DNA of 64,000 nucleotides, from NCBI GenBank assembly GCA_027405735.1, contig JAPEHQ010000003.1:186001-250000 (forward strand), written 5' to 3'. Origin of the DNA: Mucor racemosus (lineage: Eukaryota; Mucoromycota; Mucoromycetes; Mucorales; Mucoraceae). The notes under the pieces are model-generated. The model was given only the letters and a program-made list of their open reading frames with translations, had not been told where the DNA came from and searched no databases. Shown here one piece after another: positions 2 through 8,717 of the stretch (its first letter is position 1; each line of letters begins with the position of its first letter). The translations under genes were made by a program, and so were the position numbers.

Positions 2-1442
2 GTGACTCAGACATCCACAAGAAGCAATGAGATCAACAGCAGAATTGCAGCATTGATTGACCAGAAGACCACAATAGAGAAAAGGTTGAAGGACGCTCAA
101 ATTACACTTAATAAATATCTACTTGGTTCAGAAAGTGCTTCTCAACTGAAAAAAAAATGGAATGATGAAAATATAGATAGAGACTCGCTGCATAAAGAGA
201 TACAAGTGGCCAAGAAAAAGAAGAGACAATTGATTCAAGAAGTAGTGAAAGCAAAGCAAGAACTGTCCAGTGCCAATAATGACATCTACAAGCAGAGATA
301 TGACGCTACCTCCTCTGCTGAAAGAAGACAGATAATACCAGTCGAGCCCAACAAACCTTGCCATCACAAGGTGGAGGAGTGTATTATTGATCAAAAAGTA
401 GATGAAGACCAACTTGTATTTTCAGGGACAGATAACGGTATTGTTAATGTTACTGAGACAGTTGCTTTTGGTGTCGATAGGTTGAAATATCATCTTCGTT
501 TGTACAATCGCTTTCAAGTATTACAAGATCAAGGTAATTTAATGCTCGTTGATATCTTGCTTGTGGCTAATTTTCAATGCACAAATTTTAGAAGACGCTT
601 ATATGGAAGAGAAAGAAGACGCTCAGTTGAAGAAATTGCCCACATCATTCAAGGTAAGGAGTGCCGCCCTCCGCCAACATAGTGGTCTTGCTTCTTTTTC
701 GTCTTCGCTCAATAGAAGAAAGCGCCTCACAGTCTTAGGTCAAAATGTTGCTGATCTTGAAAGCGATCTTTCTGAGTCCAGTATACAGCAATGTGGTACA
801 ATTGATGAACTGGATGCAACATTCACTCGCCATTCTCAAGCAAAGTCATGTATTCGTCAATTTTACTTTTCAAGATCGAGTGCTAATAAAAAAAGACGAT
901 TAGAATTAACGAAAAATCGATTTTATGATAGACTTGCATCAAAGGAACGAAAATTTACGAAAGTATCGTCCCCTATTATGTTTATTGGAGATCGTGGACA
1001 TGCAATCAGGTCTCCTATTAAAGGACATTTGCGATTTGGTGGATATTGGAAAGAACTGAGACATTCTCGATATACGCCTACATTGATTACTAATGAACAC
1101 AACAGTTCTCAGACCTGCCTTTGGTGTTTCAGCAAATTATCACATCCGTATACTGCAAAAGATGGTACAGTCAAGAAGACTAATGGGTCATTCATTTGTT
1201 TGAACGATGCCTGCCCAAATAAGTCTGTCGTCATGAGCAGGGATTGTCTTTCTGCATTAGCGATTGGCCTCGCTGGTGCTGCTCAGCTTATGCTTGGTTA
1301 CACCTTTCCTTGCTTTGATCCAAAAAACACAACAGCGAAACAAGCAATGTTTTCTCAATTAGCTCTGGTATTTTCGGATAGAAAACAGCAGACAAGCTGG
1401 CCCTCCGTTGGGGGTAGTACGACGAGAGCTTCGGCTCTTTGA
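2..1442 (+). CDS. Fanzor (eukaryotic TnpB-like RNA-guided nuclease), 5'-partial, two exons
   Basis: The coding segments are 2..533 and 592..1442, with a 58-nt GT-AG intron (534..591) whose removal joins the two frames; about 460 residues are visible and the 5' end lies outside the window. The C-terminal half has the TnpB/Fanzor layout in order. A RuvC-I aspartate lies in FSGTDNGIVNV (GAT at 431-433). A RuvC-II glutamate lies in TNEHNSSQTC (GAA at 1095-1097). A zinc ribbon of CxxC (CLWC) and Cx4C (CLNDAC) follows, then a RuvC-III aspartate in MSRDCLSALAIG (GAT at 1242-1244). All three acidic residues are intact. The N-terminal part is lysine-rich and probably helical, as expected for a nucleic-acid-binding REC/WED region. 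Proteins of this family are guided by an RNA encoded at the 3' end of their element to cut double-stranded DNA. The family call rests on motif order and spacing; activity is inferred. No in-frame ATG marks a start here, so the gene is treated as truncated by the window edge. Confidence 0.87.
1398..1442 (+). ncRNA. candidate guide-RNA scaffold (fRNA/omega-RNA-like) hairpins at the Fanzor 3' end
   Basis: Two adjacent hairpins occupy the last coding bases. Positions 1401-1405 (CCCTC) pair with 1410-1414 (GGGGG, one G-U pair) around a 4-nt loop. Positions 1425-1429 (AGAGC) pair with 1434-1438 (GCTCT) around a TTCG tetraloop. The stretch is far more GC-rich than its surroundings. In TnpB and Fanzor loci the guide RNA overlaps the 3' end of the ORF and runs into the element end, so position and structure fit. 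The RNA itself, and any guide starting near 1443, are inference. Confidence 0.38.
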
Positions 1443-2087
1443 GGTAAGTTTATATTCATTAGACATAACTCAATACTAAATCAATTCATTCTTTAACCTT
1501 CTAAATTCAAATTCACCTTTGGTAAGTAAAATCCTTCTACATTTGTTACCCAGTCAACTAATCAAATCTCTCTTTCCTTTTTGAACTACTTAGCTTGCTA
1601 TACCCTCTCAGTATTTTCGATCCATGCTCTATTGATGGTAAAATAAATGTAAGGTTTTATCTCAAATAAATGACTTTTTAACAGCTTGATTTGTGATCAA
1701 GATAAAATCAGCTGAAGCGGCTTTAAAATTACTATACTACGCTTTTGAAAACAATTTCTTCGATTATTAAATGATTACATCTATTTTTGCTTATTCATAT
1801 CACGTTCTTAAATAGAGTAAAAGTTCCTCGTAACATGGCAATGTCTTATAAATGTGTGGCCAACCAATAGAATAATCTGTAAATTTCATAATCCTTACAG
1901 AATATTCAGGAAAATGGATTAAATAACCGCATCTTTTAGTTTTGAGATTATTCAGCTAATCCTTTAGGGTTTAACATCGGGGACAAACATTAATAAGCCT
2001 TGGGTTTTTGCCCAATCATCATGGTTTATCATGCCATTAGTAATAATCTCCCATGAAGAAAGAGGAAATATAAAAAAAATTTCTTGG
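1443..2087. other. intergenic, AT-rich
   Basis: No convincing coding region, RNA gene or inverted repeat was seen. The right end of the Fanzor-bearing element should lie in the first part of this stretch, but no terminal repeat could be matched because the left end is outside the window. Confidence 0.5.
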
Positions 2088-2167: not shown

Positions 2168-2553
2168 ATGTCTTTCCAAGAACCCAAGAATCTCGAAGAA
2201 TTCAAGCAATTGATCAACCAAGACAAGCTTGTCGTTGTTGATTTCCATGCTACCTGGTGTGGTCCTTGTAAGTTGATTGCTCCCAAGCTCAAGAAGTTTG
2301 CTGAACAATACGCTGATGCCATCTTTGCCAAGGTTGATGTTGATGATGTTCCTGTAAGTATTATTAAAAGTGATTGGTAATCAAAAAGGGAAACATGATG
2401 CTAATTCTTTTATAAAAGGATGTTGCTGCTGAATGTAAAATCCGTGCTATGCCTACCATCTTGTACTTCAAGAACGGTGAGCAAGTCGGTGAGGTTGTTG
2501 GTGCCAACGCTGTCAACATTGAAAACAAGATCAAGGAAATTCTTAAATTGTAA
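2168..2553 (+). CDS. TRX1: thioredoxin
   Basis: Exons 2168..2353 and 2419..2553 flank a 65-nt phase-0 intron (GTAAGT...AAAAG) and give 106 residues, the normal size of a cytosolic thioredoxin. The active site WCGPC has its cysteines at about 31 and 34, preceded by the usual VVVDFHAT strand. The cis-proline motif MPT and the C-terminal [11 protein letters not shown] helix lie in exon 2. Thioredoxin reduces protein disulfides using electrons from thioredoxin reductase. There is no signal peptide or presequence, so it is probably cytosolic or nuclear. An AATAAA lies about 75 nt past the stop codon. A paralogue with the same intron position lies about 0.7 kb downstream. Confidence 0.95.
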
Positions 2554-2889: not shown

Positions 2890-3236
2890 TTGTTTGTCTC
2901 GGTTTACACATAATAAAAAGCCTTTTTCTAACATGATGATGGACTTTTCCATGCATTAAAAATAATCATTGAAAACTGAAACTTACCGGACTTGATCTGA
3001 TCAAGATAAGATTATTTTTGGATATTCTTATGCTATGAATTATCACTTGTCATCTGGACAAGCCCGACAAATCCTGCACAAACAACATTGTTTATTATAT
3101 ACCACATTTGGCCAACACTACAATGAATATATATTGTGGGAAGAAAAACGCTAAAAAGGATCAAATTTATGCAAAAATGAATGATCAAAAGCTTTCAAAT
3201 GAGGTGCATTCATGCTTCTCTATTTTCTTCTTTAAA

Positions 3237-3628
3237 ATGTCTTTAACTGTTAACAATTTACTTGAATTGGAACAATTAGCTAATCATAATGACAAAAAGC
3301 TTTGCATTGTTGATTTTCATTCAACAATCTGTGGCCATGGCAAAACAATATCTCACCAGCTTGTAAATCTAGTCAAGAAGTATGGCCCCGAGAAGGTTAT
3401 ATTCATAAATGTGAATGTGGATGAACAAATTGTGAGTAATATGCTTTTATATTATCCGATTATCCTCTAAATTTCATGTATTTTGCATAGGACGTTGCAG
3501 CTAGATACAATATCCGTGTTCTACCTACGATAGTTTATCTCAAAAAAGGTGAAATTGTTGGTGAAACTGTGGGTGCCGACTTGGACAGTATTTCGAAAGA
3601 GCTGGAACAGCAATTGTTGGTTTTGTAA
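3237..3628 (+). CDS. thioredoxin-like protein with degenerate active site
   Basis: Exons 3237..3431 and 3491..3628 give 110 residues with a thioredoxin fold pattern: IVDFHST strand, VNVDEQI, then DVAARYNIRVLPT with the cis-proline, and GETVGADL. The active site reads ICGHGK instead of WCGPCK: the tryptophan, the proline and the second cysteine are lost, so only one redox cysteine (about residue 32) remains. The phase-0 intron is at exactly the position found in the upstream thioredoxin, which points to a tandem duplication. An in-frame upstream ATG at 3108 would add 43 residues with no thioredoxin similarity; the 3237 start is preferred because it aligns with the paralogue. Dithiol reductase activity is unlikely; a monothiol or binding role, or slow decay, is possible. 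Confidence 0.82.
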
Positions 3629-4756: not shown

Positions 4757-7140
4757 AGATAAAAGTGCATTCATTTTGTAGTGGAAATTGCAACATTTTG
4801 ATGGATAGAAATTACAGGGCCAATATGTTGTATTTGCCTCAGGATTTTCAAAAGGGGTTAAAAGCATATTTCATCAAACTTATTTAGATGTTAAATACTC
4901 ACCATATGCTATTATTAGTATCGTCTTGTTTTTTTATTCAATTGCTGTATTATTAAAAATCAAGCTTTTTATTGCTTGCTGTATAACAATGGCAGTGGGA
5001 TATTTCTAAGTTTAGATTGACATTTATCATAAGGCGTGCTGATGATATGTTTGATACTACTGTAAATGGAACCAGTTAATTTAATTTATGGAATTTGAAT
5101 GCAAATACTGAGGAACTATTTGTAAGTACTTAATTTGGTTCTGTTAACGTATTGAATAAATTGGCTTGAGACACAGACAACAAAAAGGTAGCAATAGGTT
5201 CCAGCGATGGTCATGTTTATGTTTATAATATTGGAGAGGTAAGACTAAAACTTAATGTAAGTTACCTCTAGCGCAATAATTATAAAGTAAGACTATATTA
5301 TCATCAAATAAACTACCATGCAATATTACTATATATAAAGATTTACAGCAATAAGTTTGAATCAAATGCTTACAGCATTGTACATTCTTGAAAAAGTTCT
5401 CAAGTATTATAAAATCTCTTATTTTTAAGACTTACAAGGCTTATAAGCGGAATATTAATTTCAAAAATTATTTTTGTCCAGATCATCAATTTTGACATTT
5501 TTAAATTTTTTTTTTCTGATTTTGCAAATCTAGAGTTAATTATACTACCAATTATAAAAACAAGAAATATACACATATACAACATTTAGCGCTCTATTTG
5601 CTTAATAAAAAATGACGAGCATTTTTATTGCAAAATATAACATGAAAATCCTTTAATCAAAAAACCGTTTTTGGGCCAAAAGTACAAAGTTTCGTTACTT
5701 AACATTTAATATTAAGCTTTTATAAAATGCGTATTGGTCATGGCTACAATTCTCTCTCACAATGTAGTATATTTAAACGTTGATTTTGGTATCAAAATTT
5801 GATTTTTCTGTTTTTTTATCAAAATCATGAGTGTTGGTAAGGATAAAATGAGCCCCGAAAATGTCCGCTACAAAGTCTGAATTTTCAGACCGTACGTGGT
5901 TAAATAGAAGAAAAGTAAAAAAAAAAAACGCTTTTTTATTTAAAATTTAGATATATACCATAGTATAATAGACGTAGCCATTCAATCTTGCTGTGGTCAA
6001 TTACGGTGGTGCTCTACGGACTCGTTTTTGCAACTTTTTCAATAAATGTATGATATGACAGATGGTTTTTCTGGTAGAAAAATGCATGTTTCTATGATAA
6101 CAGATATTGCCAATTTTGTTTAGTTTATGGGTTGATGCGCTTTAATTCTGCTTTTACATTGGCTGAAATGTGCAATTTAGCAGCGTTTTAATTGCACTAA
6201 ATAATGTAAAGCTTTGAAAATCCTTTTCTACGTGTGTTGTTTCTCTCTTTCTGTTTTTATATTCCAAGGATATTATTCACCGTTTGATAAGGCATATCAA
6301 GCTATGAAGCTGGTATTCTTTTCTTTTATTTGAATACACATGCTAACGTAAGGGACTAATGTTTTTAATATAGGTAGCAGAGTAGCAGTCTATATTAGAG
6401 ACTGATATTTTCATTTAACCGCATTCTAAGATCAAATATCATTATTTACTACTGTATTGTTGGGCATATTTCTTGATGATTACCAGATCAAGTCGAAGGC
6501 AATAACATTTATATCTACTCAATGAAAAGCTGGAGAACTGGCTACAAACTTGTTGTAAATGTATGTAATAAAGAAAGATAAGTACGTGAGAATTGGTCAA
6601 TCTTTATTAAATATAAAAACGAGATGGGGAAATCAAATGAAGGGTGAATGTCTACTGCTATTTATATTTGATTTAAGGATTGCTTACACACCTGTCTAGA
6701 ACAGTATTCTCATACTAAAATTTAGTGTCAATCCTCACTTATGCTAATGTAATTATATTCAGATATAGATGATCAGTCTAAAGTCTTTAGTTGCTCTTGG
6801 CAACACTAATTATTAATATTCTTTACTTTCTATCTTTTATTGTAAGTCTAGATTATCAGAACTTAGGTTATGTGATTATCAGGGTAATCATTTACAGTGT
6901 TTATATGACGACACATATGCTAAATATGTTAAGGCATAGTTTATTGTCATATTTAAACTACGATTTAAGGTACATTTATATATGCAAATACAACAAAACT
7001 CACGAAATGTTCCAGAAAAGTAATGAAATTTGAAATGATATAAAATCACAAAAAAACAATGATCTAATGTCTTGTATAATAACCATAGTCTTGATCGTAG
7101 CTATACTTGAAAACAAATACCTTTACAGCTGACAATCGTA
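4757..7140 (+). repeat. dispersed repeat family A, copy 1 (inverted relative to the other copies)
   Basis: The sequence from about 4757 to 6650 is the reverse complement, at roughly 90% by eye, of material at 7920-9760, 19400-20880, 52430-53560 and 54440-55930. The segment 6900-7140 matches 51960-52140. Landmarks are the shared core GACCGTACGTGGTTAAAT at 5889 and a WD40 gene fragment at 5091-5238. Copy 1 and copy 2 (from 7918) form a large imperfect inverted repeat. The best-conserved parts are non-coding. Confidence 0.8.
5091..5238 (+). pseudogene. WD40-repeat gene fragment in repeat A copy 1
   Basis: Translation near the end reads KKVAIGSSDGHVYVYNIGE, a typical WD40 blade edge (GSxDxxVxVx), directly followed by a GT-AAG donor at 5239. 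An upstream piece reads WNLNANTEEL, followed by a GTAAGT. An in-frame stop (TGA where other copies have TGG) shows it is not functional. The pattern recalls the U5 snRNP 40-kDa protein (SNRNP40/Spf38), but the parent gene is not in the window. The fragment recurs in all five A copies. Confidence 0.6.
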
Positions 7141-7504
7141 AACTAAAATAGTAGTAAGTTTAAAGAAGGTTAATTTGTTTAACTTTTATGCGTAATAAAG
7201 TAACATTTATAATATTAGATTTGGCTTGCATATAAATTCAAGCAGTAAGTATTATTTAAGTTTATGTTCGAACAAAAACCACTGTTGCTTTAAACATTAT
7301 AGCCATAAAAATATTTACAAATGATGATGATAATCATAAATATATTGGTTCTTGCATGTATTCCTCTACATCAACAACGTATTGAATTGTATTACTGTCT
7401 ATAATCTATATTAATAAAAGCAAATGTAATTTAAAAACCTATTATTCCAGTAGAGTATGCAATGGAATTTTGAGAATGACACGATGCTCATGTAGAAACC
7501 AATT

Positions 7505-7815
7505 TGTGCCCATACGATCAGCTCGTTAGGCTCATGGTCAGGTTTTACTATTATGCACAAATAGGGGTAATGACATGCTTATGGGTGATTTTACTATTAT
7601 GCACACATGGGATTATTGTCCTGCATATGGACAAAATCTATAATTCTGCACATACAGGCTTAGCGTTGTGCCCGTGTGCAGTTTCTTTTGTTGTGCCCAT
7701 GTGCATTCTGTTATCTTTTTAGCCATATTCAGCGGGCAGAACAGTTCAGTCTATAATGTGCAGCCCACCTGCTGGGCACAACAAAATCATCTTGTGCAGC
7801 ACAGGTCGGCCGTAG
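7505..7815. repeat. cluster of short TGTGCCCATG / CTGCACA motifs
   Basis: At least nine variants of TGTGCCCATG, TATGCACACATGGG or their complements occur in about 300 bp, ending at the shared boundary motif CGGCCGTAGTG. Shorter versions occur at 19330-19400, 54350-54440 and 58500-58580, always just before the same boundary. The motif cluster looks like the subterminal part of a family A unit. A reading frame across 7504-7722 is a by-product of the repeats and is not called a gene. Confidence 0.5.
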
Positions 7816-7921
7816 TGTATGAATATGATGTAAATCAATGATCTTCATTGATTTACTATAACACTAATTATAAACTGAGACCTTCTTGGATGTGAGACCT
7901 ATGATGAGTATCAACATAATA
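7816..7921 (-). repeat. fragment of a chromovirus LTR
   Basis: About 105 bp align, at roughly 85-90%, with the right half of the 220-bp LTRs at 11477-11696 and 18882-19101 (shared ATATGATGTAA, TTGATTTACT and GGATGTGAGAC). The rest of the LTR, including its TATA box, is missing. It separates the motif cluster from family A copy 2. Confidence 0.65.
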
Positions 7922-8717
7922 AGCGCAATTAAAACGCTGCTAAATTGCACATTTCAGCCAATGTAAAAGCAGAATTAAAGCGCATCAACCCATAAACTAA
8001 ACAAAATTGGCAATATCTGTTATCATAGAAACATGCATTTTTCTACCAGAAAAACCATCTGTCATATCATACATTCATTGAAAAAGTTGCAAAAACGAGT
8101 CCGTAGAGCACCACCGTAATTGACCACAGCAAGATTGAATGGCTACGTCTATTATACTATGGTATATATCTAAATTTTAAATAAAAAAGTGTTTTTTTTT
8201 ACTTTTCTTCTATTTAACCACGTACGGTCTGAAAATTCAGATTTTGTAGCGGACATTTTCGGGGCTCATTTTATCCTTACCAACACTCATGATTTTGATA
8301 AAAAAACAGAAAAATCAAATTTTGATACCAAAATCAACGTTTAAATATACTACATTGTGAGAGAGAATTGTAGCCATGACTAATACGCGTTTTATAAAAG
8401 CTTAATATTAAATGTTAAGTAACGAAACTTTGTACTTTTGACGCAAAAACGGATTTTTAGTTAAAGAATTTTCATGTAATATTTTGCAATAAAAATGTTT
8501 GTTACTTTTTATTAAGCAAATAGAGCGCTAAATGTTGTATATGTGTATATTTTTTGTTTTTATAATTGGTAGTATAATTAACTCTAGATTTGCAAAATCA
8601 GAAAAAAAAAATTTAAAAAATGTCAAAATTGATGATCTGGACAAAAATAATTTTTGAAATTAATATTCCGCTTATAAGCCTTGTAAGTCTTAAAAATAGG
8701 AGACTTTATAATACTTG

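Follow-up and report, generated by a model that had tools for sequence, protein, structure and literature searches.

The window, a 64,000-nucleotide stretch of the Mucor racemosus genome (G000:C3:186001-250000), starts within a non-autonomous 4.6-kb mobile element, designated family F, whose 1166-residue Fanzor-like protein is a likely RNA-guided RuvC nuclease and which was probably spread in trans by a CryptonF recombinase acting at a shared CAGTA core. What is new is a highly diverged, double-length lineage that is under purifying selection, together with a defined core and modules that are joined at this core. The evidence comes from the structure of the gene, from the copies of the element and its relatives in the searched genome (53.2 Mb in 54 contigs), and from comparison with annotated proteins.

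Structure of the gene

The original prediction described positions 2-1442 of the window as a spliced Fanzor gene. Both open frames are present and the splicing is real, but the region is only the 3' part of a three-exon gene for a Fanzor relative of twice the normal size, and the contig continues upstream. The L006 locus adds 7 kb upstream (window position = L006 position minus 7000). In L006 the exons are at 4830-6224, 6279-7533 and 7592-8442, separated by introns of 54 nt and 58 nt, of which the 54-nt intron lies upstream of the other and outside the window. The start codon is 2.2 kb upstream of the window. Thus, the upstream extension that had been suggested for recovery of the N-terminus yielded a full spliced protein of 1166 residues, about twice the usual size of Fanzor1, in a Crypton-type element.

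The 58-nt intron was borne out. Its excision at window positions 534-591 (GTAATT...TTTTAG) fuses the two frames into one, which ends with TGA at 1440-1442. The introns are supported on three grounds. First, the removal of both gives a single open frame in 18 of 21 aligned copies of the element. Secondly, the related family G encodes a protein of 1195 residues in a single exon that lacks both introns. Third, relatives from Mucor and Rhizopus align over the exon joint. The coordinates of the features are collected in Table 1.

An earlier start of the gene, at a 58-codon open reading frame (L006 4443-4616), was considered and dropped. This frame is readable in all 21 aligned copies, with its Met codon changed in L014 and a 3-nt deletion in L021. 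The relatives P0002-P0004 begin at the residue that matches Met1 of the 1166-residue protein, and the upstream frame was therefore kept out of the gene model.

Table 1. Features of the family F element at the start of the window, with the corresponding splice-donor-like motifs of families E and G
Feature	Position in window (or locus)	Strand	Observation or basis
3' part of exon 2 (whole exon, L006 6279-7533)	1-533	+	Coiled-coil stretch and RuvC-I strand; frame runs upstream to L006 6279
RuvC-I codons D-N-G; Asp850 of TDNG is a candidate catalytic residue	431-439 (Asp850, 431-433)	+	D850, N851 and G852 invariant in 7 of 7 aligned giants
58-nt intron, GTAATT...TTTTAG	534-591	+	Splicing in silico, copies, family G
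Exon 3: RuvC-II, C4 zinc ribbon, RuvC-III and stop	592-1442	+	Listed other copies 97-99% identical at full exon length
Glu1052, candidate alternative catalytic Glu, six residues ahead of the zinc ribbon (EHNSSQTCLWC)	1095-1097	+	Motif alignment
C4 zinc ribbon	1116-1214	+	CLWC at 1116-1127; CLNDAC (Cx4C) at 1197-1214
RD of RuvC-III; Asp1101 (1242-1244) is a candidate catalytic residue	1239-1244	+	Motif alignment
Non-coding 3' region, where a candidate guide-RNA scaffold may lie (putative role)	1443-1608	+	GGTAAGT straight after the stop
Right CAGTA core, end of the element	1609-1613	+	Limit of copy similarity and read junctions
Splice-donor-like motif	F, 1443-1449; E, L046 3132-3138; G, L049 4839-4845		By sequence

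Copies of the element and selection on the protein

A search of the genome with the protein and the 3' end identified 23 right ends of family F, each beside a copy of the gene. The copies are about 98% identical from about L006 4001 to about 8614, where the similarity ends (at 8604-8622 in most copies and at 8646 in one). Agreement of this degree that ends abruptly therefore indicates a 4.6-kb mobile element present at separate sites. Its left CAGTA core lies some 3 kb before the window begins, at L006 4003-4007. Family F appears to have been recently active. One copy (L033) is split by an insertion of about 400 bp that by eye is SINE-like: it ends in poly-T, contains a tRNA-like box and has a duplicated flank of about 17 bp.

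For the dN/dS analysis 21 of the 23 copies were aligned; the copies on C17 and C4, broken up by an insertion or spread over two loci and carrying an insertion or stops, were omitted. An uninterrupted protein of 1166 or 1169 residues is encoded by 18 of the aligned copies, and three are broken. The 889 coding differences from the window copy comprise 468 synonymous, 419 replacement and 2 stop-creating changes. The pooled dN/dS was 0.24, with values of 0.12-0.53 per copy that are not independent, as each copy was compared with the window copy. Variants found in a single copy gave 0.415 and shared variants gave 0.235. The intact frames and the low dN/dS thus indicate that the protein was selected while family F spread. 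The same figures bear on the explanation that the gene is a dead Fanzor relic whose frame is open by chance. The three broken copies and the insertion or stops in the copies on C17 and C4 would agree with such decay, but the 18 intact copies, the pooled ratio and the count of two stop-creating changes make it highly improbable.

Relatives and sequence motifs

The protein searches, in which the best 8000 and the best 7993 candidates were scored, give a lower bound for the number of relatives. Among the matches listed, at least five annotated proteins of 985-1129 residues align at 28-46% identity, and at least two further fragments come from Parasitella parasitica. The sources among these matches are Mucor, Rhizopus and Parasitella, and also Gilbertella, Helicostylum and the like; P0002 is from M. 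circinelloides.

The layout of Asp, Glu, CxxC...Cx4C and Asp that had been predicted for this protein is present in full and in the Fanzor/TnpB order. TDNG and the equivalent of Glu1052 are kept in all seven of the giant proteins aligned, including the 1195-residue protein of family G. The C4 ribbon and RD stand at the published Fanzor/TnpB spacing in the six giants that reach that far; P0004 stops short of the ribbon and fails the motif tests that depend on it. Bao and Jurka (2013) defined Fanzor/TnpB proteins by the long motif D-X(125,275)-[TS][TS]xx-C4-X(5,50)-RD (PMC3627910), which was found in six of the seven giants examined, that is, in every full-length one. An alternative Glu six residues before the zinc ribbon is a further criterion for Fanzors (PMC10711439); E1052 is invariant in the seven, and E..[TS][TS]..C..C occurs in all except P0004. 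In addition, the spacing between G1016 and E1052 is 36 residues, the same as between G500 and E536 of Fanzor1, where it is extremely conserved (PMC3627910). At RuvC-I, DPG is near-exclusive in Fanzors (PMC10711439); all seven giants have DNG at this site. A shuffle test covered the signature downstream of the first Asp: among 20,000 shuffled versions of the protein, the Glu-CxxC block by itself turned up 11 times and the ordered Glu-CxxC-CxnC-RD signature never.

Profile and structure comparisons

HMM searches against TnpB/Fanzor profiles, which the original prediction had put forward as a check, did not support it. The Pfam model PF07282, with a cut-off of 26.3 bits, gave 13.3 bits for the exon-3 frame of the window and 13.5 bits for P0002, both correctly placed, and no match for P0003, P0005, P0006, the family G protein and one exon 3 of the sister family E. 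The controls P0010 (37) and P0012 (31) were above the cut-off. The NCBIfam TnpB models had no match to five giants; two canonical controls matched these models, yet below the cut-off (29.5 of 100 at best).

Profiles were also compared with each other, using a canonical set of 11 Mucorales proteins that matches the solved SpuFz1 (8gkh) at E 6.6e-10. The whole-protein comparison with this set gave P 0.038 and a probability of 1.4%, with only the Glu-CxxC block aligned. The hhalign comparison of the C-terminal part with canonical Mucorales Fanzors gave P 8e-4 with a probability of only 24%, over 18 columns on the Glu and CxxC; this score was reached by none of 200 column shuffles and not by the reversed profile. 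A sequence search of the PDB with the giants returned three chance-level matches, none of them related, and no relative was found among 137 pattern matches in viral contigs.

Structure prediction had also been proposed. The two AlphaFold models obtained are too weak to judge the RuvC fold: they have a mean pLDDT of 56.6 and 54.5, with values below 50 over most of RuvC in both, and Foldseek found no match at E<=0.001 with the second, in which RuvC is modelled at this low confidence. The weak AlphaFold model of P0002 has a long, mainly helical N-terminal part.

Set against the refuting condition of the original prediction (no HMM or structural match to the TnpB RuvC fold), these results neither refute nor confirm it, and the C-terminal profile comparison does place the Glu-CxxC block on that of canonical Fanzors. 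Membership of the giant protein in the Fanzors is thus only partly established. The motif order, the alternative Glu and the transposon context uphold the TnpB/Fanzor identity that was first proposed, whereas DNG in place of DPG and the sub-threshold PF07282 score do not. The protein is called Fanzor-like here because it agrees with the motif definition, differs at one fingerprint residue, and has a RuvC fold that is predicted from its sequence motifs.

Element ends, the CAGTA core and the Crypton composites

CAGTA occurs at both ends of most copies of families F and E, although L015, L016, E13 and the E copy on C17 each have a single-base change at one end. The F and E ends that were read are short direct repeats and are not inverted repeats of each other, an arrangement that characterizes CryptonF elements. 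Terminal inverted repeats of the MuDR/Mariner type were absent from these ends and present in family G. In most F copies the left end is CAGTATCTTCACCCTGAG..., after which these 42 bp or so recur in inverted orientation to form a palindrome. This palindrome (L006 4003-4160), the sole inverted repeat found in F, includes an inverted core that abuts the element body; its middle is inverted in some copies and deleted or collapsed in others.

The first 124-130 nt of the F left end recur at three other places with 95-98% identity, and a 62-nt piece is found at a fourth place, on C19, with nothing else in common. The three places are composites of about 7.6 kb (L042+L046, L043+L048 and L047+L044), in which a tyrosine recombinase is followed by a second giant Fanzor family, E. 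In the one composite scanned, NDC10_II (4.9e-42) and GCR1_C (1.2e-23) identify a CryptonF recombinase, with the layout described for CryptonF in PMC3212892. The right ends of the composites, ATACC-N4-CAGTA, match the right-terminal ATACCN4CAGTA of F. Exon 3 of family E is present at 13 places with 95-100% identity. Composite E26 has an internal CAGTA at the point that corresponds to the start of stand-alone E elements, and the composites thus have the appearance of a Fanzor element with a Crypton docked at its core. All three composites have an interrupted recombinase frame, each where another copy reads on, so an intact present source of the recombinase was not found among them. The F element encodes no tyrosine recombinase with GCR1_C and in this respect is not a CryptonF.

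Crypton-type left junctions were read in 19 of the 23 F copies, the others being L017, L025, L031 and L033 (the junction of L033 lies outside its locus). L025 and L031 do not have the Crypton-type left end, L017 has only its inner part, and L031 has the left end of family E; left ends have therefore been exchanged. Because the left end of F is common to a CryptonF-type element beside family E, trans-mobilization by a Crypton is the best explanation for the spread of F. The shared ends and core suggest that F, which has no transposase of its own, would be excised and inserted at CAGTA by a CryptonF-type tyrosine recombinase, probably acting in trans. Recombination at the core would leave CAGTA at both ends, often with 4-5 further target bases duplicated, and a circular F would carry the junction ATACCCTCTCAGTA joined to TCTTCACCCTG.

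Another Crypton-like recombinase was noted at about 40 places (G000 C1, C2, C4, C5, C8, C11, C13, C19 and others). It is mostly a 412-residue frame with 33-34% identity to the recombinase of the composites and very similar scores, and several of these places form pairs about 2.9 kb apart.

Family G and the probable role of the protein as a passenger

In family G (L049-L051) the same protein lineage lies between inverted repeats, CTTGAATCTTGCGAGTATAATA, the left of which is cut short in one copy. The flanks have 8-bp matches, by eye, in all three copies, not always flush with the ends. A PF07282-positive Fanzor, L011, adjoins part of the inverted repeat of family G. A single lineage of proteins found between two kinds of ends that are unrelated is most readily explained as a passenger that moves from one vehicle to another, and not as a transposase; such behavior has already been reported for Fanzor1 in general (PMC3627910). 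The opposing explanation is that the 1166-residue protein is the transposase of a new kind of element and that it resembles Fanzors by convergence at the zinc ribbon. A transposase would account for the facts that the 4.6-kb element has no other large gene, that this gene is under selection, and that neither the library HMMs nor the structure search confirms homology to TnpB/Fanzor. It is nevertheless improbable, as the lineage lies between CAGTA-core ends in F and E and between inverted repeats with 8-bp flank matches in G, and as the ends of F are common to a tyrosine-recombinase element.

Target-site traces

The bases before the left core are AA in all 19 F copies in which a Crypton-type left end was read, and the base before the left core is T in all nine E-only copies read (of 10). 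The F copy L031, with its E-type left end, has TT, and the composites E26, E13 and E12 have AA, TT and AT, respectively. A clean Fanzor-specific target-adjacent motif was spoiled by L031 and the composites. The right-terminal tetranucleotide was suspected to be strictly coupled to the base that precedes the left core, but C21 and C1b break this rule and it was rejected. CAGTA also precedes the flank at an occupied right end, and a functional target-adjacent motif would therefore need to include bases further upstream; the candidate is the left-flank motif, AACAGTA for F and TCAGTA for E.

At least four bases after the core are equal at left and right in 7 of 9 E-only copies and in 6 of 20 F and composite copies (17 F copies and 3 composites with both ends parsed), whereas shuffled pairings gave expectations of 1.8 and 1.9 (fraction 0.00035 each). 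These duplications resemble the ATAATTNNNN(N) duplications of MCi-2 (PMC3627910) and would fit a strand exchange that spans the core plus a few unmatched bases and can be resolved in either direction. Empty sites were searched for with a 3255-nt query in which the flanks of 21 copies (18 F and 3 composites) had been joined. The best 40 of 97 candidates were scored; all were at the copies' own flanks and none was an empty site, which does not amount to a negative result.

The right end and the putative guide RNA

The 3' non-coding region of the element is conserved among copies. Rfam had no match in window positions 1200-1800, and no helix was common to the minimum-energy folds of the four right ends folded, two from F and two from E. 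In a step proposed from the motif order and from what is known for SpuFz1 (PMC10432273), the Fanzor-like protein, together with a guide RNA made from the right end and the adjoining flank, would cut sites that lack the element, and the cutting of such empty sites would favor retention or homing of the element.

The splice-donor-like motif of F, E and G is 0-4 nt past the stop and reads GGTAAGT (GGTAGGT in E). A branch-site-like ACTAAT is near the right end in the copies shown. The PF07282-positive Fanzors L007-L009 have CAGGTAAGT about 75 nt past the stop, and L011 has none within 170 nt. These motifs would allow for an intron in the 3' UTR that spans the presumed guide-RNA region. A more far-reaching proposal, which we regard as doubtful, is that in a double-length Mucorales Fanzor lineage CAGTA is at once the Crypton crossover core and part of the target-adjacent motif, that modules dock, swap ends and travel together, and that the stop-adjacent splice donor of the three families would part the guide-RNA region from the mRNA.

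Comparison with known systems

The giants resemble Fanzor1 proteins (SpuFz1, GtFz1 and PpFz1, the last from the Mucorales fungus Parasitella; PMC11423790) in the Asp, the alternative Glu six residues before the C4 ribbon and the RD, and in their occurrence in eukaryotic transposons and fungal hosts. They differ in length (1166-1195 residues versus 600-700 for the majority of Fz1; PMC11423790), in having DNG and not DPG, in scoring below the Pfam cut-off, and in the long, mainly helical N-terminal part of the weak P0002 model. IS607/Fanzor2 elements are similar in that a passenger RuvC-type protein is carried in an element moved by a site-specific recombinase; here, however, the recombinase is of the tyrosine and not the serine type, the core is another one and the protein is a giant. 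CryptonF elements share the GCR1_C tyrosine recombinase (in the composite scanned), the short terminal direct repeats and the absence of classical terminal inverted repeats, whereas F has no recombinase and is a passenger element carrying a nuclease-like gene.

Crypton-like and MuDR-like elements that carry Fanzor1 have been known from Mucorales since 2013, as MCi-2 and MCi-4 (PMC3627910). Families F and E are like MCi-2 in the near-constant Fanzor 3' module, the swapped 5' ends, the Crypton remnant and the duplication of a core plus 4-5 variable bases; MCi-4 has terminal inverted repeats with 9-bp duplications (PMC3627910), and here such repeats occur in family G. The core is ATAATT in MCi-2 and CAGTA here, and here the 5' differences were traced to core junctions and both CryptonF domains are recognizable. 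It could be argued that the element is merely a new copy of an ordinary Fanzor1 element of the MCi-2/MCi-4 type, as MCi-2 combines 5' regions that have been swapped with part of a Crypton transposase and with ATAATTNNNN(N) duplications (PMC3627910), and as P0002 is from M. circinelloides. This is unlikely, because Bao and Jurka left MCi-2 unclassified and the available excerpt of their paper describes no CAGTA core, trans relation or protein of this size (PMC3627910); the distinction from MCi-2 is drawn from its published description. Among the matches listed from the Fanzor, Crypton and Mucorales literature, in excerpts that exclude supplements, no description of the giant lineage was found beyond the 2013 families and PpFz1 (PMC11423790).

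A strongly diverged lineage of about 1200 residues, under selection in recently spread elements and missed by the Pfam model, would widen the size range of Fanzors. The role of Fanzors for their transposons becomes directly testable, since intact copies are numerous, the core is defined and each family has its own flank preferences. The modular junctions could also explain, in concrete terms, the "fuzzy 5' ends" of MCi-2, for which no cause had been given.

Neighboring sequence in the window

Downstream of the element, a two-exon thioredoxin-like gene and then a second frame with a thioredoxin-like stretch, both named by eye, are at window positions 2168-2553 and 3108-3470. A palindromic MITE-like repeat with arms of 35-39 nt is at 2689-2889 (L006 9689-9889), just past the thioredoxin-like gene.
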